From Pacificispira spongiicola (GTDB taxonomy: Bacteria > Pseudomonadota > Alphaproteobacteria > UBA8366 > Aestuariispiraceae), in the NCBI RefSeq assembly GCF_012926505.1, contig NZ_JABBNT010000001.1, positions 434,001 to 498,000 on the forward strand: a DNA stretch of 64,000 bases, read 5' to 3'. Position numbers and translations under genes: made by a program. Below are positions 16,138 through 27,307 of the stretch, in pieces; positions within the stretch are counted from its first letter, which is position 1; the number at the start of each line of letters is the position of its first letter. Under the pieces are notes generated by a model. That model was not told the DNA's origin. It worked only from the letters and a program-made list of their open reading frames with translations, and did not search any database.

Positions 16138-18348
16138 ATGGATCGCGCCGATATCGTTCATGACAATTTTCTGCGCCGGGTGGCGGCGGGCGATCTGCCC
16201 GTGCGGTCCGGTACCGTGTCGCTGGCAGACGCCGGGCTGACGCCGGAAGCGCTGGTCGAAATCTATCAGTCGCAGATCCTGTCGCGGAACCTGGACCGTA
16301 TCTCCCGCAAGCTGCAGGCGCGGGGCGAAGGCTATTACACGATCGGATCGTCGGGGCATGAAGGGAATGCCGCCGTGGCCGCCGCGTTCCGGCCGACGGA
16401 TATGGCCTTCCTGCATTATCGCGACGCGGCCTTCCAGATTCAGCGGTCCCGGCAGGTACCGGGTCAAACGCCGCTATGGGACATGTTGCTAAGCTTCACC
16501 ACATCGACGGAAGACCCGATTTCCGGCGGGCGGCACAAGGTTCTGGGGTCCAAGGCGCTGTCCATCCCGCCGCAGACATCGACCATCGCATCCCACCTGC
16601 CCAAGGCGGTCGGCGCGGCCTATTCCATCGGCACGGCGAAACGGGTGAAACCGGAACATGCCACCCTGCCCGACGATGCGGTGATCGTGTGCAGCTTCGG
16701 CGACGCCTCGCTGAACCATTCGACGGCGCAAGGCGCGATCAACACGGCGGGCTGGACCTCCTATCAGGGCGTACCGCTGCCGCTGGTCTTCGTCTGTGAA
16801 GACAACGGGATCGGCATATCGACCAAGACCCCCGGCGGCTGGGTCGCGGCCAGCGTCGAACATCGTCCGGGCCTGCGATATTTCCGCTGCGACGGGCTGG
16901 ACATCGCGGAGACCTACGCCGTCGCGAAACAGGCCGCCGACTGGTCCCGCACGCGCCGCAAGCCCGCCTTCCTGCATATGGGTTGCGTGCGGCTGTACGG
17001 TCACGCCGGGGCCGACGTCCAAACCGCCTATATCAGCAAGGAGGAGATCGAAACCGACGAGGCGCGCGATCCCCTGCTGTACACAGCGGGGACGCTGATC
17101 CGCGAGGGTATCCTGACGGCGGAGGAGGCACTGGGCCTCTATACCGACACGTCCGATCGGGTCGAGGCGGCGGCGGAAGAGGCGATCAAACGCCCGCGCC
17201 TGAAGACGGCCGATCAGGTGATGGCCAGCCTGATCCCGCCGAAGCGCGATTGCCGCCCGACCAACGGCCCGTCGGCGGACGCCCGCAACGCCTGTTTCGG
17301 GGAGGCCGATCTGCGCGCCCAGGAACAGCCGCAACACATGGCGAAGCTGATCAACATGGCGCTGACGGACCTGATGCTGACCCATCCGGAAATCGTCATG
17401 GCGGGGGAAGATATCGGCCCGAAGGGCGGCGTCTATGGCGTGACGCAGCGCCTGCACGACCGGTTCGGCCCGGCCCGCATGATCAACACGCTGCTGGACG
17501 AACAGTCGATCCTGGGTCTCGGCATCGGCATGGCCCATAACGGGTTGCTGCCCATCCCGGAAATCCAGTTCCTGGCCTATCTGCACAACGCGGAAGACCA
17601 GTTGCGCGGCGAAGCGGCGACGCTCAGCTTCTTTTCCGACGGGCAATACACCAATCCGATGATCGTGCGCATCGCCGGTCTGGGCTATCAGCGCGGCTTC
17701 GGCGGGCATTTCCACAACGACAATTCACTGGCCGTCCTGCGCGATATTCCGGGGTTGATCGTGGCCTGCCCGTCCAACGGCGCGGATGCGGTGCATATGC
17801 TGCGCGAATGCGTGCGGCTGGCGCGCGAAGAACAGCGCGTCATCGCCTTTGTCGAACCGATCGCCCTCTACATGACCCGCGACCTGCATGAAGCGAAGGA
17901 CGGCGGCTGGACGCATATCTACCCGAAGCCGGGCGACGGCGGCATCGCCCTGGGCCAGATCGGCCAGCACGGCGATGGGCAAGACCTCGCCATCGTGACC
18001 TATGGCAACGGCTATTTCCTGTCGCGGCAGGCGGAACGCGATCTGACAGCGAAAGGTATCAAGACGCGGATCATCGACCTGCGCTGGCTGGCACCAGTGC
18101 CGGAAGAAGCGATTCTGGCGGCGACGAAGGGATGCAAGAATGTCCTGATCGTCGACGAATGCCGCATCACCGGGTCGCAGAGCGAGGGGTTGATGGCCCT
18201 GTTCACCGAAGCGGGCCGTTCCACTGTGGCGCGGGTCGCGGCGAAAGACAGCTTCATCGCCACCGGTCCGGCCTTCGGCGCGACCCTGCCCAGCAAAGAC
18301 GGGATTGCAAAGGCCGCGATCAATCTGGTGACGGGAGGGGCTCGATGA
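16138..18348 (+). CDS. Fused alpha/beta 2-oxoacid dehydrogenase E1 (thiamine diphosphate-dependent)
   Basis: This 736-residue protein joins an E1-alpha half (to about residue 360) and an E1-beta half (about 395 to the end) of the branched-chain or pyruvate dehydrogenase type. The alpha half has the thiamine diphosphate motif GDASLNHS (from 188) ending in CEDNG (Asn223), and the beta half has VMAGEDIGPKGGVYGVTQ and FLAYLHNAEDQLRGE. Such E1 enzymes decarboxylate a 2-oxoacid and acylate a lipoyl E2, yet no E2 or E3 gene is present here. Instead the next gene, overlapping by four bases, is an acyltransferase. The substrate is unknown. GGGGAG precedes the ATG. Confidence 0.85.
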   Translation: MDRADIVHDNFLRRVAAGDLPVRSGTVSLADAGLTPEALVEIYQSQILSRNLDRISRKLQARGEGYYTIGSSGHEGNAAVAAAFRPTDMAFLHYRDAAFQIQRSRQVPGQTPLWDMLLSFTTSTEDPISGGRHKVLGSKALSIPPQTSTIASHLPKAVGAAYSIGTAKRVKPEHATLPDDAVIVCSFGDASLNHSTAQGAINTAGWTSYQGVPLPLVFVCEDNGIGISTKTPGGWVAASVEHRPGLRYFRCDGLDIAETYAVAKQAADWSRTRRKPAFLHMGCVRLYGHAGADVQTAYISKEEIETDEARDPLLYTAGTLIREGILTAEEALGLYTDTSDRVEAAAEEAIKRPRLKTADQVMASLIPPKRDCRPTNGPSADARNACFGEADLRAQEQPQHMAKLINMALTDLMLTHPEIVMAGEDIGPKGGVYGVTQRLHDRFGPARMINTLLDEQSILGLGIGMAHNGLLPIPEIQFLAYLHNAEDQLRGEAATLSFFSDGQYTNPMIVRIAGLGYQRGFGGHFHNDNSLAVLRDIPGLIVACPSNGADAVHMLRECVRLAREEQRVIAFVEPIALYMTRDLHEAKDGGWTHIYPKPGDGGIALGQIGQHGDGQDLAIVTYGNGYFLSRQAERDLTAKGIKTRIIDLRWLAPVPEEAILAATKGCKNVLIVDECRITGSQSEGLMALFTEAGRSTVARVAAKDSFIATGPAFGATLPSKDGIAKAAINLVTGGAR

Positions 18349-19373
18349 GCAAGCAACGCGCACTGATCGTCTGTCCCGGACGCGGCACCTATAACAAGGA
18401 CGAATTGGGCTATCTGGCCCGTTATCACGGGGCCCAGGCAAAATTCATTGCCGATCTGGACGCGGCGCGGTCCGCCCTGGGGCAGACGCCGGTTTCCGCC
18501 CTGGACGGCGCGGCGCGCTATTCGGTGGCGGATCATACGCGGGGCGACAATGCCTCCCCCCTGATCTATGCCTGCGCCTATTCCGATTTTCTGACCATCG
18601 ACCGAAACCGCATCGAGCCGGTCGCCGTGACCGGTAATTCGATGGGCTGGTACATCGCGCTGGCCTGCGCCGGGGCGCTGGACGCGATGGGCGGCTTCAC
18701 CGTCGTGAACACAATGGGCACGCTGATGCAGGAAGCCCTGATCGGCGGGCAGTTGATCTATCCTTTCGTCGATGAGAACTGGCGCGACATTCCGGGGAAG
18801 AAGGCGGACATCCTGTCCCTGACGGAGGAAATCGACGGGCTGTATCTGTCCATCGACCTGGGCGGCATGCTGGTCCTGGCCGGCACCGACAACGCCCTGG
18901 CGGCAGCGGAAAAGCGGCTGCCGGTGGTGCAGGAACGCTTCCCGATGCGGCTGGCCAATCACGCTGCCTTCCACACGCCGTTGCAGCAGCCGGTGGCGGA
19001 ACGCGGTCAGGCGGCCCTGCCGCTGGCGCTGTTCCACTCCCCCGACCTGCCGTTGATCGACGGGCGCGGCCATGTCTGGTTCCCGAAAGCAACGGACAGT
19101 GCGGCCCTGCGCGACTATACGCTGGGCCACCAAGTCGTCGAACCCTACGATTTCACCGCGGCGGTGCGCAGCGGCCTGCGTGAATTCGCGCCGGATTTGG
19201 TGATCGTCCTCGGGCCGGGGCAGACGCTGGGCGGGGCCGTGGCGCAGACCATGATTGCCAATTCCTGGCGCGGGCAGACCTGCAAAGACGACTTCACCGC
19301 GTTGCAGAAGGCGGCCCCGTATCTAGTGTCTCTGGGCATGGACGGTCAGCGCGGATTGGCGATTCAGGCTTGA
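18345..19373 (+). CDS. FabD-like acyltransferase
   Basis: This 342-residue protein has the acyltransferase fold of malonyl-CoA:ACP transacylases. The nucleophile Ser99 lies in TGNSMGWYIALACAGAL (GxSxG), and His210 in NHAAFHTPL matches the second catalytic residue of FabD. It lacks the usual N-terminal FPGQG; the equivalent here is CPGRG. True fabD is normally next to fabG and acpP, which are absent, so a dedicated partner of the upstream E1 is more likely. The ATG overlaps the E1 stop (ATGA), indicating coupled translation. The acyl donor and acceptor are unknown. Confidence 0.78.
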   Translation: MSKQRALIVCPGRGTYNKDELGYLARYHGAQAKFIADLDAARSALGQTPVSALDGAARYSVADHTRGDNASPLIYACAYSDFLTIDRNRIEPVAVTGNSMGWYIALACAGALDAMGGFTVVNTMGTLMQEALIGGQLIYPFVDENWRDIPGKKADILSLTEEIDGLYLSIDLGGMLVLAGTDNALAAAEKRLPVVQERFPMRLANHAAFHTPLQQPVAERGQAALPLALFHSPDLPLIDGRGHVWFPKATDSAALRDYTLGHQVVEPYDFTAAVRSGLREFAPDLVIVLGPGQTLGGAVAQTMIANSWRGQTCKDDFTALQKAAPYLVSLGMDGQRGLAIQA

Positions 19374-19431: not shown

Positions 19432-20310
19432 ATGGCTATCGTCAATTTCGGGTCGATCAATATCGACAAGGTCTATCGCGTTTCGCATTTTCCGGCTGCG
19501 GGTGAAACGCTGCTGGTCGACGGGTATTCGGTCGGCCTGGGCGGTAAAGGTGCAAACCAGTCCATCGCGATGGCCCGTGCGGGGGCCGACGTGCGACATA
19601 TCGGGGCCATCGGCACCGACGGGTTATGGACCAAACAGCGGCTGTCGGACGAAGGCATCGACACGGACGGCATTGCGGTGCTGGAAAACGAAGCCACCGG
19701 CCATGCGGTGATTGAGGTCGACCCCAGCGCGGAAAACAAAATCCTGGTCCTGTCCGGCGCGAATGCCGCCCTAACCCAGGATCAGATCGACACGGCCGTC
19801 GGCGCGATGGGTGCCGACGACTGGCTGCTGTTCCAGAATGAAACCAATCTGACGGAAGCCATCGCCGCCGCCGGCAAGGCGAAGGGCGTGCGCATCGCCT
19901 ATAGCGCCGCGCCGTTCATTGCCGACAAGGTCGTCCCGCTGTTGGATATGGTGGACATGATTTGCGTGAACCATCTGGAAGCCGCGACCCTGGCGGAAGG
20001 CTATGGCGGCGACATGGACGCGATCCCGGTTTCGCGTCTGTTGGTCACCTATGGCGCACGAGGCGCGGAATACCGTGACGATGGCCATGTCGAATTCGTC
20101 CCGTCCTTCAAAGTCGACGCCGTCGATACGACCGGGGCGGGCGACACCTTCCTGGGCAGTTTCCTGGCCGCGATCAGCAAGGACGCGCCGGGCCAGCATG
20201 CCTTGCTGCAAGCCTCCGCCGCCGCTGCGCTACAGGTGTCGCGGCATGGGGCGGCGGATGCCATTCCGACCGCCGACGACGTCCATAAATTCCTCTTCAG
20301 CCGGGCCTGA
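19432..20310 (+). CDS. PfkB-family sugar kinase, ribokinase-like
   Basis: This 292-residue PfkB kinase has the first signature GLGGKGANQSIAMARAG and the second DTTGAGDTFLGSF, which contains the catalytic Asp. In this operon it probably phosphorylates the ribose or deoxyribose released from nucleosides. It stands 58 bases after the acyltransferase gene and five before the nucleoside hydrolase gene, so it may begin a separate unit or be part of one long transcript. A direct nucleoside kinase role is a real alternative for PfkB enzymes. Confidence 0.85.
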   Translation: MAIVNFGSINIDKVYRVSHFPAAGETLLVDGYSVGLGGKGANQSIAMARAGADVRHIGAIGTDGLWTKQRLSDEGIDTDGIAVLENEATGHAVIEVDPSAENKILVLSGANAALTQDQIDTAVGAMGADDWLLFQNETNLTEAIAAAGKAKGVRIAYSAAPFIADKVVPLLDMVDMICVNHLEAATLAEGYGGDMDAIPVSRLLVTYGARGAEYRDDGHVEFVPSFKVDAVDTTGAGDTFLGSFLAAISKDAPGQHALLQASAAAALQVSRHGAADAIPTADDVHKFLFSRA

Positions 20311-20315
20311 GAAAC

Positions 20316-21266
20316 ATGACCGAAAAAATCATCATCGACACGGATCCCGGCATCGACGACGCCATGGCGATCCACCTTGCCTTCGCCCATCCGGGGTTGG
20401 AGGTCGTCGCCCTGACCACGATCTTCGGGAATGTGCATACCGCAACGGCGACCCGCAATGCGCTGGTCCTGGCCGAAATGGCGCAGTATCCCTGCGCCGT
20501 CGCGCAGGGGGCGGACAAACCGCTGGTCCTGCCGCTGAACCCGCCCGCCGATTTCGTGCATGGCGCGGAAGGATTCGGCGACCTGCCCGCACGCACGCCG
20601 ACGGGCAAACCCGATCCGCGCAGTGCCGCCGCCTATATCTGTGAAATGGCCGCCGCCCATCCCGGTGAAATCACCCTGTGTGCCGTCGGGCCGCTGACCA
20701 ATCTTGCCCTGGCACTACGGCACGACCCCGCCGTGACGAAGAACCTGAAACGCGTCGTGATCATGGGTGGGGCCGTCGACGCGCCGGGCAACGTGTCCCC
20801 CTTCGCCGAGGCAAACATCATTAACGACCCCCACGCGGCGGAAGAAGTCTTCGCCGCCGACTGGCCGATCACGCTGGTCGGGTTGGACGTCACCATGCAG
20901 GTCCGTTGCACGCCCGACGATTTCGCGTCCATGCCGGGATCGTCCCCGACGATCGGTGGGTTCCTGAACGACGCGACGCAATTCTACTTCGACTTCCACC
21001 GCCGACAGCACGACCTGAATTGCTGTTTCATGCATGACCCGACGGCGGTGATCGCGGTCACCGACCCCGATGTCCTGACATGCGAATCCGTGCCGCTGTC
21101 CGTCATCTGCGAGGGGGAGAAGATCGGCCAGACCGTGCGCATCGACGATCCGGCGCGCCGCCCGGTCGATGTGGCCCTGGGTGTCGATATTGATCGCGTC
21201 CGATCGATTTTTATTGATACGATCAAATCGGCGGACGGAAGAGTGGCGGAGCGCACGGCGAAATGA
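20316..21266 (+). CDS. Nucleoside hydrolase (IUNH family)
   Basis: This 316-residue enzyme cleaves the N-glycosidic bond of ribonucleosides to base and sugar. The N-terminal IDTDPGIDDAMAI holds the aspartates that bind Ca2+ and the nucleophilic water. VIMGGAVDAPGNVSP and the C-terminal CCFMHDPTAVIAVTDP are further family landmarks. Preference for purine or pyrimidine nucleosides is not clear from sequence. Its stop overlaps the start of the oxygenase gene by four bases, so the two are tightly coupled. Confidence 0.93.
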   Translation: MTEKIIIDTDPGIDDAMAIHLAFAHPGLEVVALTTIFGNVHTATATRNALVLAEMAQYPCAVAQGADKPLVLPLNPPADFVHGAEGFGDLPARTPTGKPDPRSAAAYICEMAAAHPGEITLCAVGPLTNLALALRHDPAVTKNLKRVVIMGGAVDAPGNVSPFAEANIINDPHAAEEVFAADWPITLVGLDVTMQVRCTPDDFASMPGSSPTIGGFLNDATQFYFDFHRRQHDLNCCFMHDPTAVIAVTDPDVLTCESVPLSVICEGEKIGQTVRIDDPARRPVDVALGVDIDRVRSIFIDTIKSADGRVAERTAK

Positions 21267-22111
21267 CCGATTTCAATCTGCTGACGATCGACTGTCAGGC
21301 ATCGGACGCACCGCAGCGCCTTGTCCAATCCCTGCGCGATACGGGTTTCGCGGTTCTGACGAACCATCCGATTTCCGCCGGTGAAATCGCCGATGTTTAT
21401 GCCGGTTGGGAGGCGTTTTTCGCGTCGGACGCCAAATTCGACTATCTGACGACACCGGAAACGCAGACCGGATATTTCCCCTTCAAATCGGAAAACGCCA
21501 AGGGCTATTCCAAGAAGGACTTGAAGGAATTCTTCCACGTCTATCCGCACGGTCCCGTCCCGGCGGATTTGGAAGCGATGACGCGGGACTTCTATGACAA
21601 GCTGGTCGCGTTGGGCCGCGCCATGCTGTCCTGGATCGAGGACAATTCTCCGGAAGACATCCGCGCCCTGTTTTCCGAACCCTTGCCGCAGATGCTGGAC
21701 GGCAGTTCGATGAACCTGCTGCGCATTCTGCACTATCCGCCGCAAGACCCGGAAGACGCACATAGCGGCGCGGTCCGCGCGGCGGCGCATGAGGATATCA
21801 ACCTGATCACCCTGCTCGTTTCCGGCAGCGCGCCTGGTCTGGAAGCCCGCGACGCTAAAGGCAACTGGCACGAAGTTCCCTGCGATACGGGCATGATCAC
21901 GATGAATATCGGCGACATGCTGCAAAAAGCGTCGGGCGGTTACTATCCGTCGACGACCCACCGTGTGGTCAATCCGAAGGAAGGGCAGAATGTTTCGCGA
22001 TATTCCATGCCCATGTTCCTGCATCCCCGCCCGGATGTCCGGTTGGATGCGGATTACACGGCGAATGATTACCTTCAGGAGCGTTTGCGCGAAATCGGCC
22101 TGAAGGGATAA
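21263..22111 (+). CDS. Isopenicillin N synthase-like 2OG/Fe(II) oxygenase
   Basis: This 282-residue cytoplasmic oxygenase has the iron ligands His176, Asp178 (AAHEDINLITLL) and His233 (TTHRVVNP), and the 2-oxoglutarate-binding Arg246/Ser248 (SRYSMPMF). It is thus a catalytically complete member of the superfamily that contains isopenicillin N synthase, plant dioxygenases and fungal thymine 7-hydroxylase. No beta-lactam genes are nearby. It is translationally coupled to a nucleoside hydrolase and precedes a nucleoside-type transporter, so a nucleoside or nucleobase hydroxylase role is plausible; that assignment is inference. Confidence 0.85.
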   Translation: MTDFNLLTIDCQASDAPQRLVQSLRDTGFAVLTNHPISAGEIADVYAGWEAFFASDAKFDYLTTPETQTGYFPFKSENAKGYSKKDLKEFFHVYPHGPVPADLEAMTRDFYDKLVALGRAMLSWIEDNSPEDIRALFSEPLPQMLDGSSMNLLRILHYPPQDPEDAHSGAVRAAAHEDINLITLLVSGSAPGLEARDAKGNWHEVPCDTGMITMNIGDMLQKASGGYYPSTTHRVVNPKEGQNVSRYSMPMFLHPRPDVRLDADYTANDYLQERLREIGLKG

Positions 22112-22149
22112 GGTAACCGCAGTCTCTTTCGAACAGGGAGTTCCAAGCA

Positions 22150-23151
22150 ATGAAAAATGTTTTCCGTGGCCTCGGCCTCGCCGCCGTCATGGCGATCGCC
22201 GGTGTTGCCAATGCCGCTGATTTCAAACCCGCCGTCGTCTATGACCTGGGCGGCAAGTTCGACAAATCCTTCAATGAAGGCGTCTATGAAGGGGTGAAGC
22301 GTTTCACCGAGGAAACCGGCGTCGAGGTGATGGAATTCGAAGTCACCAACGAAGCCCAGCGTCAGCAGGCCATGGAGCGCATGGTCAGCCGTGGCGCGAC
22401 CATCCTGCTGGGCGTCGGTTTCGCCCAGGCCGACGCGATCGATGCGGTCGCCAAGGAAAACCCGGAGAAGCAATTCTCCATCATCGACGTGTTCTGGCTG
22501 GATCAGCCGAACCTGCGCCAGTATTCCTTCAAGGAACATGAAGGCAGCTATCTGGTCGGCGTCGCGGCGGCCATGGCGTCCGAAACCGGCACGGTCGGCT
22601 TCGTCGGCGGCATGGATATCCCGCTGATCCGCAAATTCGCCTGCGGCTATGTCCAGGGCGCGAAGGCCACGAAGCCCGACATCACCGTTCTGGAAAACAT
22701 GACCGGTACGACCCCGTCGGCCTGGAACGATCCGGTGAAGGGCGGCGAACTGACCCAGGGTCAGATCGACCGTGGCGCGGACGTCGTCTATCACGCGGCG
22801 GGCGGCACCGGCATGGGCGTCATTCGCGCCGCCGCCGATGCGGGCAAACTGGCCATCGGTGTCGATTCCAACCAGAACTATCTGGCGCCGGGCAAGGTTC
22901 TGACCTCCATGGTCAAACGCGTCGACATCGCCGCCTATCAGACCTTCATGGATGCCTATAAGGGCAAGTTCACGCCGGGCGTACAGTCGCTGGGCCTCGC
23001 CGAAGGCGGCGTCGACTGGGCCGTGGACGACAACAACAAGGACCTGGTCGACGGGGCCATCGCCGATGCGGTGGACCAGGCCCGTGAGGACATCGTATCC
23101 GGCAAGGTCACTGTCCATAACTACGAAGACGATTCCAACTGCCCGTTTTAA
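22150..23151 (+). CDS. BMP-family ABC transporter substrate-binding protein
   Basis: This 333-residue periplasmic protein belongs to the basic membrane protein family, whose best-studied members bind nucleosides. The signal peptide ends ANA before ADFKPAVVYD, with no lipobox, so it is soluble. The early motif DLGGKFDKSFNEGVYEG is the family's substrate-binding loop. It has a strong AGGGAG ribosome-binding site and is followed by a hairpin over its stop codon, which probably raises its yield relative to the downstream transporter genes. Confidence 0.93.
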   Translation: MKNVFRGLGLAAVMAIAGVANAADFKPAVVYDLGGKFDKSFNEGVYEGVKRFTEETGVEVMEFEVTNEAQRQQAMERMVSRGATILLGVGFAQADAIDAVAKENPEKQFSIIDVFWLDQPNLRQYSFKEHEGSYLVGVAAAMASETGTVGFVGGMDIPLIRKFACGYVQGAKATKPDITVLENMTGTTPSAWNDPVKGGELTQGQIDRGADVVYHAAGGTGMGVIRAAADAGKLAIGVDSNQNYLAPGKVLTSMVKRVDIAAYQTFMDAYKGKFTPGVQSLGLAEGGVDWAVDDNNKDLVDGAIADAVDQAREDIVSGKVTVHNYEDDSNCPF

Positions 23152-23163
23152 GACGGCAGTTGG
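23135..23163 (+). promoter_or_regulatory. Hairpin across the end of the BMP gene, likely mRNA-stabilising or attenuating
   Basis: CCAACTGCC (23135-23143) pairs with GGCAGTTGG (23155-23163); an alternative register adds CGT/ACG with one bulged C. The stem overlaps the stop codon of the binding-protein gene and no T-run follows, so it looks like a 3' stabiliser or processing element rather than a terminator. Confidence 0.55.
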
Positions 23164-23184
23164 GACGACGGTTGGATTGAATTC

Positions 23185-24792
23185 GTGACCGGACAGGACA
23201 CCCATCACGGTATGCGCGGCGGGGATGTTTCCCCGCCGCCTGCCGTTGAATTGCGCCGCATCAACAAAAGGTTCGGACGGGTTCACGCGAACCGCGATAT
23301 CGACCTGACCATCGACGCGGGCACGATTACCGGCATTATCGGCGAGAACGGCGCGGGCAAGTCCACGCTGGTCAGCATCCTGTACGGTTTTTATTCCGCC
23401 GATAGCGGCGACATCCTGATCGACGGCACCCCCGTCGCGCTGACATCCACCGCCGACGCCATCCGCTGCGGCATCGGCATGGTACATCAGCATTTCATGC
23501 TGGTACCGACGATGAGTGTCCTGGACAATGTCATGCTGGGCCGCGAAGGCGGTTTCACCCTGACCGACGGCATATCCAAGACCCGCAAACGTCTGGCGCA
23601 GTTGAGCGAAGATTACGGCTTGGAGATCGACCCTGACGCCCTGGTCCAGGACCTGCCGGTCGGTTTGCAGCAACGCGTCGAAATCCTGAAGGCGCTGCTA
23701 CGCGGCGCGCGTATTCTGATCCTGGACGAACCGACGGGCGTCCTCACCCCGCAGGAAGCGGACCGCCTGTTCGAAATTCTGCGGATGCTGAAACAAGACG
23801 GCGTCACGATCCTGCTGATCACGCATAAACTGCGCGAAATCATGGCCATCACCGACGACGTCAACGTCATGCGCCACGGTCAGATGGTCGCCCACCGCAA
23901 GACGAAGGACACGAACCGCGAGGATTTGGCGCGCCTGATGGTCGGGCGCGACGTCCTGTTCACCGCGAAATACCATGAAAAGGAACCCGGCGCGCCGATC
24001 CTGGAAATCGACGCGCTGACCCATCACGACAGTCGCGGCAGTACCGTCCTGTCCGATATTTCCTTCACCCTGCGGGCGGGGGAAATCTTGGGCATCGCCG
24101 GGGTGTCCGGAAACGGCCAATCCCAGCTTCTCGATGTCCTGTCCGGGATCGAACCGGTACAGGAAGGCACAATCCGGGTCGCCGGGGAAGTGATCGACAG
24201 CCGCAACCGCCGCGACCCGACGGCCCTGCGTCAGGTCGGTGTCGCGCATATCCCGGAAGACCGCCATCACCGCGGCCTCGTCCTGCCGTTCAGCGCGGCG
24301 GAAAGTTCGATCCTGGGCTATCACCTGACCGACGTGGCCGGGTCGGGCCTGTTCCTGGACCTGCAGAAGATCGAGGCGCGCTGCGCCGATCTCATGCAAC
24401 GCTATGACGTGCGCCCGCCAGACCCGCAATGGCGCAGCGGCGGCTTTTCCGGCGGCAACCAACAGAAAATCGTCGTCGCCCGCGAAATCGCCGCGTCGCC
24501 GCAAGTCCTGCTGGTCGGTCAGCCGACGCGCGGCGTCGATATCGGCGCGATCGAATTCATCCACAAGGAATTGCTGGCCGCCCGCGACCGGGGCTGCGCG
24601 ATCCTGCTGGTCTCCGTCGAACTGGACGAGATCATGGCCCTGTCCGACCGCATCCTGGTGATGAACGCCGGACGCATCGTCGGCGAAACCGCCCATGGCG
24701 AGGCGGACCCGAACCGCATCGGCCTGATGATGGCGGGTATCGACCCGAACAACGCGCGGGACATCACCGTCCAAGAAACCGGCGCAGCATGA
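23185..24792 (+). CDS. Duplicated ABC ATPase of the nucleoside (BMP) transporter
   Basis: This 535-residue protein holds two ABC domains in one chain, as in the RbsA/YufO type. The first has an intact Walker A (GENGAGKST), a degenerate signature LPVGLQQR and Walker B (ILILDEP). The second has a modified Walker A (GVSGNGQSQ), signature FSGGNQQK and Walker B-like VLLVGQPTRGVD. Asymmetry of this kind is normal for the family. It energises uptake through the two permeases that follow. The GTG at 23185 is the longest sensible start; an ATG nine codons on is possible. Confidence 0.93.
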   Translation: MTGQDTHHGMRGGDVSPPPAVELRRINKRFGRVHANRDIDLTIDAGTITGIIGENGAGKSTLVSILYGFYSADSGDILIDGTPVALTSTADAIRCGIGMVHQHFMLVPTMSVLDNVMLGREGGFTLTDGISKTRKRLAQLSEDYGLEIDPDALVQDLPVGLQQRVEILKALLRGARILILDEPTGVLTPQEADRLFEILRMLKQDGVTILLITHKLREIMAITDDVNVMRHGQMVAHRKTKDTNREDLARLMVGRDVLFTAKYHEKEPGAPILEIDALTHHDSRGSTVLSDISFTLRAGEILGIAGVSGNGQSQLLDVLSGIEPVQEGTIRVAGEVIDSRNRRDPTALRQVGVAHIPEDRHHRGLVLPFSAAESSILGYHLTDVAGSGLFLDLQKIEARCADLMQRYDVRPPDPQWRSGGFSGGNQQKIVVAREIAASPQVLLVGQPTRGVDIGAIEFIHKELLAARDRGCAILLVSVELDEIMALSDRILVMNAGRIVGETAHGEADPNRIGLMMAGIDPNNARDITVQETGAA

Positions 24793-24805
24793 TTACGAAG
24801 ATACG

Positions 24806-25927
24806 ATGAGCAGCACGCCCCCCCTTCCCCGCTGGGCCGATATCGGCCTGTTGCCGGTCCTGAACCTGATGATTGCGATGGTCGTTTCCGGCCTCGTCAT
24901 CGCGGCGATCGGCGAAAACCCGTTCGACGCCGTCGCCGTCATGGTGAAGGGCGCGTTCTTCTATGACGGCAGCCTGGGCTACACGCTGTATTATACGACG
25001 AATTTCATCTTCACCGGATTGGCCGTCGCGGTCGCCTATCACGCGATGCTGTTCAATATCGGTGGGGAGGGGCAGGCCTATATCGGCGGGCTGGGCGCGG
25101 GGCTGGTCTGTCTGGCGCTGGATCAGGTCATGCCCGGCTTCGTCACCATCCCGCTGGCCATCGCCGCCGCCGCCGTCTTCGGCGCGGCCTGGGCCTTGAT
25201 CCCCGCCTATCTGCAAGCCTACCGCGGCAGTCATATCGTCATCACGACGATCATGTTCAATTTCATCGCGGCGGGGGTGATGGTGTCGCTCTTGGGCGGG
25301 GTGCTGATGCAGCCGGGGCAAAGTTCCCCCGCGTCGCGGACTTTCGAACCGTCTTCCTTCATCCCCTTCATCCATGAAATTCTGAACGGGATCGGCATCG
25401 AGGCGGCGCGCACACCGCTCAATCTAAGCTTCGTCCTCGCGCTCGCCGCCTGCGTTTTCGTCTGGGTGCTGATCTGGCGGTCACGCTTCGGCTACAGCCT
25501 GCGCACCCTGGGACAGAGCGAACCGGCGGCGGCCTATGCCGGGATTCCGGTCGGAAAGACCATCGTCGTCACCATGCTGATATCCGGCGCGCTGGCCGGA
25601 ATGATGGGCGTGAACGAAGTCGTCGGCGTGAACCACCGGCTGGTTCTGAATTTCACCGCCGGATACGGTTTCACCGGGATCGCCGTCGCCCTGATGGGCC
25701 GCAATCATCCGGTCGGGATCGTGCTGGCGAGCCTTCTATTCGGCGCATTGTATCAAGGCGGGGCGGAATTGGATTTCGAATTCCAGACGATTACGCGCGA
25801 AATGGTCCTCTTGATCCAGGGGCTGATCATCCTGTTTTCCGGGGCGCTGTCCTACATGCTGAATCCGCCGCTGGCGCGGCTCTTCGCCCGGTTGAGCGTC
25901 GGTCCCCGTCGGGAGGTCCAGGCATGA
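24806..25927 (+). CDS. Nucleoside ABC transporter permease 1 (BMP type)
   Basis: This 373-residue inner-membrane protein with about eight to ten hydrophobic helices has the family segment FNIGGEGQAYIGGLGAGLV and the EAA-like loop LGQSEPAAAYAGIPVGK. It is the larger permease of the BMP-type transporter and forms the channel with the next gene product. It starts 13 bases after the ATPase gene and its stop overlaps the next start by four bases. The C-terminal cytoplasmic tail is Arg-rich. Confidence 0.92.
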   Translation: MSSTPPLPRWADIGLLPVLNLMIAMVVSGLVIAAIGENPFDAVAVMVKGAFFYDGSLGYTLYYTTNFIFTGLAVAVAYHAMLFNIGGEGQAYIGGLGAGLVCLALDQVMPGFVTIPLAIAAAAVFGAAWALIPAYLQAYRGSHIVITTIMFNFIAAGVMVSLLGGVLMQPGQSSPASRTFEPSSFIPFIHEILNGIGIEAARTPLNLSFVLALAACVFVWVLIWRSRFGYSLRTLGQSEPAAAYAGIPVGKTIVVTMLISGALAGMMGVNEVVGVNHRLVLNFTAGYGFTGIAVALMGRNHPVGIVLASLLFGALYQGGAELDFEFQTITREMVLLIQGLIILFSGALSYMLNPPLARLFARLSVGPRREVQA

Positions 25928-26898
25928 ACGAAGTCCTCCTGCCCTTTATCCTGACGCTGGACGCGACGCTGCGCCTCGCCACGCCGCTGATCCTGTGCGC
26001 CATGGCCGGATTGTTGTCCGAACGGTCCGGGATCATCGATATCTCGCTGGAAGGCAAGCTGCTGTCCGGGGCCTTTGCGGCCGCCGCCGTCTCCACCGTC
26101 ACCGGCAATGTCTATATGGGATTGGGCATGGCGATCGTGGTGTCCGTTGCCATGGCGCTGATCCACGGCTTTGCCTGCATCACCCATCGCGGCAACCAGA
26201 TCATCAGCGGCCTTGCCGTGAATATCCTGGCATCCGGACTGACGGTGACGATCGGTTTCGCCGCCTTCCGTCAGGGCGGCCAGACCCCGCCTCTGTCGGC
26301 GGATGAACGCTTCGGCCCGATCATCCTGCCCTTCGCGGACGCCCTGCGCGACGTGCCGCTGATCGGCCTGCTGTATTCCGAATTGCTCAGCGGGCATAAG
26401 CTGATCGTCTATATCGCCCTGATCAGCGTTCCCTTGGTCGCCTGGCTGTTGTTCAAGACGCGGTTCGGCCTGCGCCTGCGCGCGGTGGGCGAAGTGCCGG
26501 AAGCGGTCGACAGCGCCGGGATTTCCGTCACCTGGCTGCGGTATCGCGCGATCATCCTGGCAGGCATTCTCTGCGGTATCGCCGGGGCCTATCTGTCGAC
26601 GGCCCATGGCGCGGGCTTCGTGCGGGAAATGAGCGCCGGCAAGGGCTATATCGCCCTGGCGGCAATGATTTTCGGGAAGTGGCGGCCCTGGTCGGCGATG
26701 GGCGCCTGCCTGCTGTTCGGCTTCCTGGAGGCCGCATCGTCGCGCATGCAGGGCGTGGAATTGCCGCTGATCGGACAGACGCCGGTGGATCTGATCCTGA
26801 TCCTGCCCTACATCCTGACCGTCGTCCTTCTGGCGGGGTTCTTCGGACGCGCCGTGCCGCCGAAGGCGATCGGCGAACCTTACGTGAAGGAACATTGA
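25924..26898 (+). CDS. Nucleoside ABC transporter permease 2 (BMP type)
   Basis: This 324-residue permease has the typical GLLSERSGIIDISLEGKLL segment near the N-terminus, the THRGNQIISGLAVNILASG motif and a cytoplasmic VGEVPEAVDSAGISV loop that would contact the ATPase. It pairs with the preceding permease; the ATGA overlap shows coupled translation. The cytidine deaminase gene starts one base after its stop, which ties uptake directly to salvage. Confidence 0.93.
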   Translation: MNEVLLPFILTLDATLRLATPLILCAMAGLLSERSGIIDISLEGKLLSGAFAAAAVSTVTGNVYMGLGMAIVVSVAMALIHGFACITHRGNQIISGLAVNILASGLTVTIGFAAFRQGGQTPPLSADERFGPIILPFADALRDVPLIGLLYSELLSGHKLIVYIALISVPLVAWLLFKTRFGLRLRAVGEVPEAVDSAGISVTWLRYRAIILAGILCGIAGAYLSTAHGAGFVREMSAGKGYIALAAMIFGKWRPWSAMGACLLFGFLEAASSRMQGVELPLIGQTPVDLILILPYILTVVLLAGFFGRAVPPKAIGEPYVKEH

Positions 26899-26899
26899 G

Positions 26900-27307
26900 A
26901 TGTCGGCAAAGGACACTCTGGTCGCGGCGGCGGTCGCTATCCAATCGAAAGCCTACGCTCCCTATTCGAAATTCACCGTCGGCGCGGCCATCCTGGACGA
27001 AAACGGGACGATTCATACCGGCGTGAATGTGGAAAACGCCGCCTATCCGGTCGGCAGCTGCGCCGAAGCGGGGGCGATTTCCGCCATGGTCGCCGCCGGC
27101 GGCCACCGCATCAAGGCGATTGCGGTATCCGGCGGGAACGGTACGGCGGACGAGCCCCTGTGCACGCCATGCGGAGGGTGCCGCCAGCGTATCCGCGAAT
27201 TCGCGGAACCGGCGACACCCATCCACATTTGCGGCCCCAACGGCCTGCGCAAGACATTCACGCTGGGCGAATTGCTGCCCGAAAGCTTCGGGCCGGAAAA
27301 CCTTTAA
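26900..27307 (+). CDS. cdd: Cytidine deaminase
   Basis: This 135-residue zinc enzyme converts cytidine and deoxycytidine to uridine and deoxyuridine. It has the substrate loop FTVGAAILDENGTIHTGVNV, the catalytic Cys-Ala-Glu in VGSCAEAGA and the PCGGCRQ zinc motif, so the active site is complete. It is the small homotetramer type. Its placement one base after the permease gene marks it as the first intracellular step for imported cytidine. The stop overlaps the convergent aspartokinase gene by four bases. Confidence 0.95.
   Translation: MSAKDTLVAAAVAIQSKAYAPYSKFTVGAAILDENGTIHTGVNVENAAYPVGSCAEAGAISAMVAAGGHRIKAIAVSGGNGTADEPLCTPCGGCRQRIREFAEPATPIHICGPNGLRKTFTLGELLPESFGPENL

Follow-up and report, generated by a model that had tools for sequence, protein, structure and literature searches.

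Why should a 2OG/Fe(II) oxygenase be encoded in an operon for the uptake and breakdown of nucleosides? This question is raised by a stretch of 64,000 nucleotides from Pacificispira spongiicola (hereafter the window), for which a first-pass annotation had proposed a route of oxidative nucleoside salvage. Part of that proposal stands: the oxygenase (OXY) has nucleoside hydrolases (NH) and transporters as partners and the fold of thymine-7-hydroxylase (T7H), but its likely substrate is changed to 2'-O-methyl nucleosides.

Architecture of the operon and fold of the oxygenase

Every reading frame of the proposed co-oriented operon was recovered on the forward strand (Table 1), and each of the Pfam families to be expected scores over its cut-off (PfkB, IU_nuc_hydro, DIOX_N with 2OG-FeII_Oxy, Bmp, ABC_tran, BPD_transp_2 in both permeases, and dCMP_cyt_deam). 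The top NCBIfam model of the kinase is ribokinase TIGR02152 (231 bits, under the cut-off of 299.65), and RihC, UriH and RihA, the models nearest to the NH, are each under their cut-offs as well; the NH belongs to the inosine-uridine nucleoside hydrolases of PF01156 (299.3 bits versus a cut-off of 34.2) and contains the stretch DTDPGIDD, which we take to be the motif of this family. With Bmp, a double ATPase and two BPD_transp_2 permeases in one run, the transporter is of the BMP type and is the predicted nucleoside importer of the operon.

Table 1. Genes of the operon, in positions of the window
Gene product	Position	Strand	Matches
PfkB-family kinase, ribokinase-like	19432..20310	+	PF00294 4e-44
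Nucleoside hydrolase (NH)	20316..21266	+	PF01156 5.1e-89; PDB 4kpo 3.4e-67
2OG/Fe(II) oxygenase (OXY), 282 aa, IPNS/T7H-like	21263..22111	+	PF03171 3.1e-17; PF14226 2.8e-12
BMP/PnrA-like substrate-binding protein	22150..23151	+	PF02608 2.6e-57
ABC transporter ATPase, two ATPase domains	23185..24792	+	PF00005, two stretches
ABC permease 1	24806..25927	+	PF02653 9.4e-40
ABC permease 2	25924..26898	+	PF02653 6.4e-35
Cytidine deaminase	26900..27307	+	TIGR01354 140.8 bits, over the 113.65 cut-off

Four-base overlaps, as claimed before, are found between the two permease genes (25924/25927) and between NH and OXY, where the stop codon of the former ends at 21266 and the ATG of the latter begins at 21263 (...AAATGACC); from this ATGA overlap we infer that NH and OXY are translationally coupled. 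A comparison of ORF tables shows a gap of 14 to 38 bases and no overlap in five relatives. In simple consensus scans, promoter-like and terminator-like sites were no commoner than in shuffled sequences (1 versus 2.2 and 7 versus 6.7, respectively), and an Rfam scan of the window gave zero matches. The E1-dehydrogenase and acyltransferase-like genes at 16138-19373 were considered as further members of the operon and rejected, because tblastn detects neither of them in any of 76 related loci (L004-L079).

OXY is an IPNS/T7H-like protein (PF03171, 63.2 bits versus 23; PF14226, 47.8 bits versus 27.3) for which the NCBIfam search gives no model, and members of its family are found in Alpha-, Beta- and Gammaproteobacteria, Bdellovibrionota and cyanobacteria. 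The residues His176, Asp178, His233, Arg246 and Ser248 are present as first noted, and they are invariant, like the HxD...H and RxS patterns, in 46/46 aligned family members. The AlphaFold2 model of OXY (pLDDT 88.9) is closest to PDB 3ON7 (VIA-align Z 36.1, 1.8 Å over 269 residues; sequence E 1.3e-91), which is uncharacterised; second among the best 50 structures, and thus the nearest functionally characterised fold, is T7H of Neurospora crassa (5c3p-5c3s; 27% identity, Z 31.8, 2.3 Å over 266 residues), in line with the suspected kinship to fungal 2OG enzymes.

The oxygenase as a recurrent partner of nucleoside hydrolases

As had been surmised from the window alone, OXY is no bystander but a recurrent partner of NH and nucleoside transporters. 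Of the 61 related loci whose sequence extends 1000 bases or more upstream of OXY, 39 have NH as its immediate upstream neighbour (42 of all 69 loci at 40% identity or more), and the pairing is spread over four places of the OXY tree and four kinds of transporter. These places are the window alone, four gammaproteobacterial MAGs, 23 rows of SAR116-type Alphaproteobacteria and 12 Burkholderiales. Among the culturable carriers of OXY, Rhodoferax has the pairing and Nitrospirillum lacks it. Labelling the tree as NH-linked or not requires seven changes, which are undated, and the NH-linked rows could represent a single old linkage with losses.

Neighbours were sought by tblastn with 25 query proteins, to which the counts refer, at identity limits of 30% for the OXY set and 35% for the set of PHYHD1-like enzymes discussed below. 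A transporter of the tested set is found near 37 of the 42 NH-OXY loci, only 17 of which have flanks of 9 kb on both sides, and the kinds seen beside the pair are two divergent BMP-ABC transporters, a CNT/NupC transporter (L046) and a NupG-like symporter (L059). In a further lineage (L151), OXY adjoins a CNT nucleoside transporter (PF07662, 2e-61), a NupC which these limits leave out and which was added from a separate search.

Eight of 387 alphaproteobacterial genomes, the window's included, contain an NH that shares 50% identity or more with that of the window, and in 8/8 OXY stands beside it, counting one genome with a stop codon in the NH frame and one with OXY split across two contigs; this survey overlaps in part with our 71-locus set, and both include related genomes. 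Among nine genomes whose NH is 42-49% identical to the window's, none has an OXY orthologue. NH and a PsuG relative occur together with OXY in 11 betaproteobacterial loci. A literature search found no paper that joins 'isopenicillin N synthase' with 'nucleoside hydrolase'.

Proposed 2'-O-demethylation and its alternatives

Sister operons of the phosphorolytic (deo) kind encode PHYHD1/FJS-like enzymes of family PF05721, a type described as removing the 2'-O-methyl group from free nucleosides (PMC12709175). Such enzymes are present in 44 of the 387 genomes; for two that were tested the nearest solved structure is human PHYHD1 (2.8e-71 and 9.8e-73), and the four residues that touch the ribose in the published docking model are invariant in 12 aligned proteins of the 44. 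A nucleoside gene lies within 9.5 kb in 27/44 of these loci, as against 0/20 loci of other PF05721 genes, which were hand-picked among the matches listed rather than drawn at random and several of which stand on short contigs. In 22 of the 44, BMP, AMN, DeoA or DeoB is the immediate neighbour in the same orientation; 17 of the 44 are without a nucleoside gene of the tested set, five of them having less than 5 kb on one side. Four PHYHD1-like genes stand directly upstream of BMP, that is, in the place which OXY holds in the window. Among the matches listed, NH and a PsuG relative accompany PHYHD1 in L099 and L100, where NH (34-35% identity) escapes the identity limit and was added separately. 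In the window's own family, three of six surveyed genomes (G001, G002, G003) have PHYHD1 at the end of a BMP-deo operon.

Because enzymes of this type occur in sister operons, and because Tyr217 of T7H is replaced by an invariant Ile179 in OXY, the substrate was revised: genome comparison points to 2'-O-demethylation as the better-documented nucleoside reaction. Nucleosides would enter by the BMP-type transporter and be broken down hydrolytically, with cytidine deaminase converting cytidine to uridine, NH splitting nucleosides into base and ribose, and the ribokinase-like PfkB protein phosphorylating the ribose. Nucleoside hydrolases need a free 2'-OH, with exceptions, and if the NH of the window does so too, OXY probably alters unusual nucleosides such that its neighbour can cut them. 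At a probability of roughly 45%, the reaction is the demethylation of free 2'-O-methyl nucleosides ahead of NH, as carried out by PHYHD1/FJS, and OXY would then be a second, sequence-unrelated family in the role that PF05721 enzymes have in the phosphorolytic operon.

Since hhalign detects no relation between the OXY and PHYHD1 profiles (BLASTP E 0.65), it is from its place alone that the function of OXY is inferred; having no PF05721 match at E 0.001, OXY may work like PHYHD1/FJS but is not a member of that family. The absence of PHYHD1 from the best 50 structures matching OXY carries no evidential weight. Several observations speak against demethylation. The exact place of OXY is held by only 4 of the 44 PHYHD1 genes, and at the level of genomes the two enzymes are not alternatives: both are present in 6 of 387 genomes (expected 2.5; Fisher p 0.028, uncorrected for kinship), among them G221 with its OXY inside an NH operon, for which reason a one-for-one replacement of PHYHD1 by OXY was rejected. 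Repeated oxygenase swaps on one transporter lineage are not supported, as a quick BMP tree of 62 rows needs three changes of oxygenase label and its well-supported branches force only one. The nearest characterised fold is that of a base oxidase, and the hydrolases LbNH and RK9NH cleave 2'-O-methyl nucleosides with the methyl group still in place (PMC12709175, PMC6278475), so that such a step need not be required. In favour of demethylation, none of the OXY loci examined has PHYHD1, and none of the PHYHD1 loci examined has OXY.

The main rival, which was also the first-pass annotation's own example, is rather unlikely in our view: OXY would be a bacterial (pyrimidine) deoxyribonucleoside 2'-hydroxylase, turning DNA-derived deoxynucleosides into ribonucleosides cleavable by NH. 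Such a reaction suits both the presumed requirement of NH for a 2'-OH and the T7H fold; fungi pair T7H with a deoxynucleoside 2'-hydroxylase. It leaves unexplained, however, why a 2'-O-demethylase family occurs in the sister operons, and a thymidine kinase near 14 of the 42 NH-OXY loci offers another fate for thymidine. In favour of this rival, six OXY-NH genomes were tested for the phosphorolytic enzymes: PYNP_C (thymidine phosphorylase) was found in one, as a 509-aa protein of archaeal type in the window's genome, and DeoC in none, seven matches to the DeoC family PF01791 in five of the six all fitting other aldolase models and not deoC. Two PHYHD1-operon controls do fit the deoC model, while L180 reaches no model's cut-off. 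Strong PNP_UDP_1 matches in two genomes (G000, G123) are MTA phosphorylases, and weak ones occur in G123, G228 and G421. Yet OXY orthologues are also found in deo-bearing genomes, namely an Aeromonas record (PYNP_C, 5.1e-22) and G003, G301 and G364 with DeoA/DeoB loci, in none of which (0/4) OXY stands beside NH. No sequence for the pyrimidine deoxynucleoside 2'-hydroxylase (EC 1.14.11.3) was found among the literature matches listed. It is improbable that OXY in this way channels DNA into a ribonucleoside pathway that works by hydrolysis alone; if true, bacteria lacking the usual pair of thymidine phosphorylase and deoxyribose-phosphate aldolase could use DNA-derived nucleosides.

Less probable still is another substrate, with OXY merely co-regulated with nucleoside genes in some lineages. 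The comparison across the Alphaproteobacteria called for earlier gave a divided answer, OXY being next to nucleoside genes in some genomes and having none of those tested close by in 13/22, so that homologues lie mostly away from nucleoside genes in this sample; they do not in the partly overlapping wider set, where 22/61 loci lack a tested nucleoside neighbour and an upstream NH. Varied neighbours, such as a ferredoxin (L153, L156) or a glyoxalase-like gene (L151) after OXY and branched-chain-type ABC ATPases before it (L150), fit this idea as well. It is opposed by the pairing with NH at four tree places, with different transporters, and by the CNT transporter directly beside OXY in L151.

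Doubtful above all is an oxidation of a methyl group or ring position of the base, in a nucleoside or free. The T7H-like fold speaks for it, as do the counterparts of Arg190, Tyr194 and Phe292 of T7H, which are invariant in OXY (Arg154, Tyr158, Phe252; Phe252 and Arg154 in 46/46). Against it, the base-stacking Tyr217 is Ile179 in 46/46, Asn87 seems to match a variable position (28 Gln and 15 His of 46, in a non-significant alignment stretch of 0.5 bits), and no partner of the isoorotate-decarboxylase type was noticed among the Pfam-named neighbours. T7H residues were mapped by a phmmer alignment to 5c3p, whose index equals the paper numbering + 2. Base oxidation could be, for example, an N-demethylation, or an attack on thymine or 5-methyluridine in the manner of T7H.

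Comparison with known systems

Free 2'-O-methyl nucleosides are RNA breakdown products whose catabolism, as presented in PMC12709175, was largely unexplored before the assignment of PHYHD1 in December 2025. The neighbourhoods described here would provide bacterial surroundings for the PHYHD1 family, as a regular component of operons of the deo and BMP types; the terms neighbo*, genomic context and deoA are absent from the main text of that paper. Among the matches listed, no other work on the PHYHD1 reaction was recognised by title, and a search on PF05721, nucleosides and transporters gave no relevant title. PHYHD1 is also mentioned in a paper on urine-metabolite genetics (PMC7878905).

Within the family of OXY, SO_2589 of Shewanella oneidensis (51% identity) is the protein of structure 3ON7, placed by a 2023 review among enzymes of undefined function (PMC10467617), and demethylation by OXY would supply this family with a testable function. 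T7H shares with OXY HxD...H, RxS and the three residues named above; it differs by Tyr217 and in acting on free bases, whereas OXY is accompanied by a nucleoside hydrolase and a transporter. RK9NH and LbNH are nucleoside hydrolases too, and the RK9NH gene adjoins an aldolase gene, with a ribokinase gene near it in a related genome (PMC6278475), but they hydrolyse the methylated nucleoside directly, and no oxygenase is mentioned in the available part of that source. FJS/PHYHD1, in turn, resembles OXY in the proposed reaction and in its BMP/cytidine-deaminase operons, down to the same place in four loci, and differs from it as a separate family to which OXY shows neither a PF05721 match nor a profile relation.

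The oxygenase operon and its nucleoside hydrolase

As the first-pass annotation had proposed, the window contains a compact, co-oriented nucleoside operon that includes a 2OG/Fe(II) oxygenase (OXY): the genes form one plus-strand run from 19432 to 27307, and the nucleoside hydrolase gene (NH) and OXY have the four bases ATGA in common. The minus-strand genes downstream, convergent with the deaminase gene, are presumably an ectoine cluster, as judged from their translations. Upstream, a fused E1-type dehydrogenase of 736 aa is overlapped by a FabD/MdcH-like acyltransferase gene that matches no Pfam model at E 0.001; neither gene was found in the related loci searched. Because OXY was not found in five other genomes of the genus searched at E 1e-30, the operon looks accessory.

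Features of the operon and its upstream flank (window positions)
Feature	Position	Strand
Fused E1-type dehydrogenase and overlapping acyltransferase-like gene	16138-19373	
pfkB kinase	19432-20310	+
Nucleoside hydrolase (NH)	20316-21266	+
2OG/Fe(II) oxygenase (OXY)	21263-22111	+
BMP binding protein, double ATPase, two permeases, cytidine deaminase	after OXY, run ends 27307	+

A scan of named genomes yielded 71 OXY loci, 69 of them with at least 40% identity. With respect to the proposed link to nucleoside salvage, the comparison of neighbourhoods supports it in part: NH lies directly upstream of OXY on the same strand in 39 of the 61 loci with at least 1000 bases upstream (42 of 69 overall), but the other 22 lack any tested nucleoside gene. 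The gene for the substrate-binding protein BMP directly follows OXY in 28 of 69 loci. In a maximum-likelihood tree of 72 OXY sequences the 40 NH-linked rows stand at four places, the label requiring seven changes: the window alone, beside a locus without NH (L009); four gammaproteobacterial MAGs (L010, L013, L026, L046); 23 SAR116-type alphaproteobacterial rows; and 12 Burkholderiales. This scatter may reflect repeated gain, or an old linkage followed by losses.

A transporter of the tested set is found near 37 of the 42 NH-OXY loci and varies in type: two kinds of BMP-ABC that are only about 30% identical, a CNT/NupC transporter at L046, and at L059 a symporter resembling NupG. Also near these 42 loci are uracil phosphoribosyltransferase (17 loci), thymidine kinase (14) and a PF04227 relative (family by Pfam; PsuG, pseudouridine-phosphate glycosidase), the last at 11 loci, all betaproteobacterial.

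A survey of 387 alphaproteobacterial genomes, each with a completeness of 90% or more, detected NH at E 1e-60 or better in 17. OXY adjoins NH in all eight genomes (window counted) whose NH is at least 50% identical to the window's, and none of the nine with NH 42-49% identical has an OXY orthologue. In one of these nine (L094:7802-9899) a 25%-identical 2OG oxygenase lies on the opposite strand about 0.5 kb from NH, with same-type ABC permeases a few kb off. OXY itself occurs in 22 genomes, in eight within NH operons and in one (L151) beside a CNT nucleoside transporter (PF07662, 2e-61). Homologues lying mostly away from nucleoside genes, which would speak against salvage, are thus the case in this survey (13 of 22 without any tested gene) but not in the wider set (22 of 61). 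The gene directly after OXY encodes a 2Fe-2S ferredoxin (PF00111) in two small genomes that belong to different families (L153:9969-10307, L156:2209-2538). Overall, we put the probability that OXY is an enzyme of nucleoside metabolism in the NH-linked lineages at about 0.75.

PHYHD1-like enzymes and a candidate reaction

Two PF05721 enzymes, FJS of bacteria and PHYHD1 of human, were shown in a December 2025 paper (PMC12709175) to strip the 2'-O-methyl group from free nucleosides. PHYHD1-like proteins occur in 44 of the 387 genomes; human PHYHD1 is the nearest solved structure for both proteins tested, and the equivalents of Lys102, His105, Gln139 and Trp277 are invariant in all 12 aligned. When all 44 contexts were compared, the gene directly adjoined BMP, AMN, DeoA or DeoB on the same strand in 22; a nucleoside gene lay within 9.5 kb in 27 (L099 and L100 included) and nothing of the set in 17, and none of 20 other PF05721 loci had such neighbours. 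PHYHD1-like enzymes are regular members of alphaproteobacterial BMP/cytidine-deaminase/deo operons (L107, L108, L122, L126-L130, L135-L138 and others), the fullest gene order (L107, L108, L122) being BMP-ABC-permease-permease-cytidine deaminase-PNP-DeoC-DeoA-DeoB-PHYHD1. In L103, L104, L106 and L117 PHYHD1 is directly upstream of BMP, the place of OXY in the window. Two small genomes from family f124 (L099:8923-11640, L100:7676-10407) have a PHYHD1-like gene with an NH gene directly after it and a PsuG relative beyond. The survey covered six genomes of the window's family: BMP-deo-PHYHD1 is found in G001, G002 and G003, NH-OXY-BMP in the window, and neither oxygenase in G010 and G013, which share the window's genus.

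One uptake operon appears to exist in two forms, phosphorolytic with PHYHD1 and hydrolytic with NH and OXY. None of the 42 NH-OXY loci shows DeoA, DeoB, DeoC or PNP, and no OXY locus carries PHYHD1 or the reverse, each within the flanking DNA examined. On the simplest reading, both oxygenases would handle nucleosides not accepted by the enzyme that breaks the glycosidic bond, foremost 2'-O-methyl nucleosides. Pseudouridine is another common RNA modification, and the presence of NH and PsuG relatives with either oxygenase fits a theme of RNA-modification salvage. For OXY, 2'-O-demethylation is the best single guess, at somewhat less than even odds. However, the two families are unrelated in sequence, and direct cleavage of 2'-O-methyl nucleosides is reported for some hydrolases (PMC6278475). 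Nor are the two oxygenases alternatives at the genome level, as six of the 387 genomes have both versus 2.5 expected.

The main rival, a deoxynucleoside 2'-hydroxylase, is in our view unlikely, yet it would be equally useful to the six OXY-NH genomes tested, given that they have no deoC-type aldolase (their seven PF01791 matches are other aldolases, save one below every model's cut-off) and that a PYNP_C protein was found in the window's genome but in none of the five others. That protein is an archaeal-type thymidine/AMP phosphorylase (L179:225-1751 on G000:C15; NF003338, 688 bits). Against this rival, OXY orthologues also occur in deo-bearing genomes (an Aeromonas record, G003, G301, G364), where OXY is not beside NH.

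Fold and pocket of the oxygenase

OXY has DIOX_N and 2OG-FeII_Oxy domains (Pfam), and no NCBIfam model names it. Its family-mate of solved structure is Shewanella 3ON7 (E 1.3e-91), which a 2023 review (PMC10467617) counts among enzymes without a defined function. The AlphaFold2 model, computed with 42 sequences, has high confidence scores (pLDDT 88.9, pTM 0.89); its top structural match is 3ON7 (Z 36.1), followed by Neurospora thymine-7-hydroxylase (T7H; Z 31.8, 2.3 A, 266 residues, 27% identity) and then by 3OOX and SpoC (Z 29.9). The T7H key residues given in PMC4787775, Phe292, Tyr217 and Arg190, correspond in a phmmer alignment to Phe252, Ile179 and Arg154 of OXY, and none of the three varies among the 46 aligned members of the family. 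Because Phe292 and Arg190 are matched but Tyr217 is replaced by Ile179, the pocket of OXY is T7H-like, without the tyrosine which in T7H covers the base.
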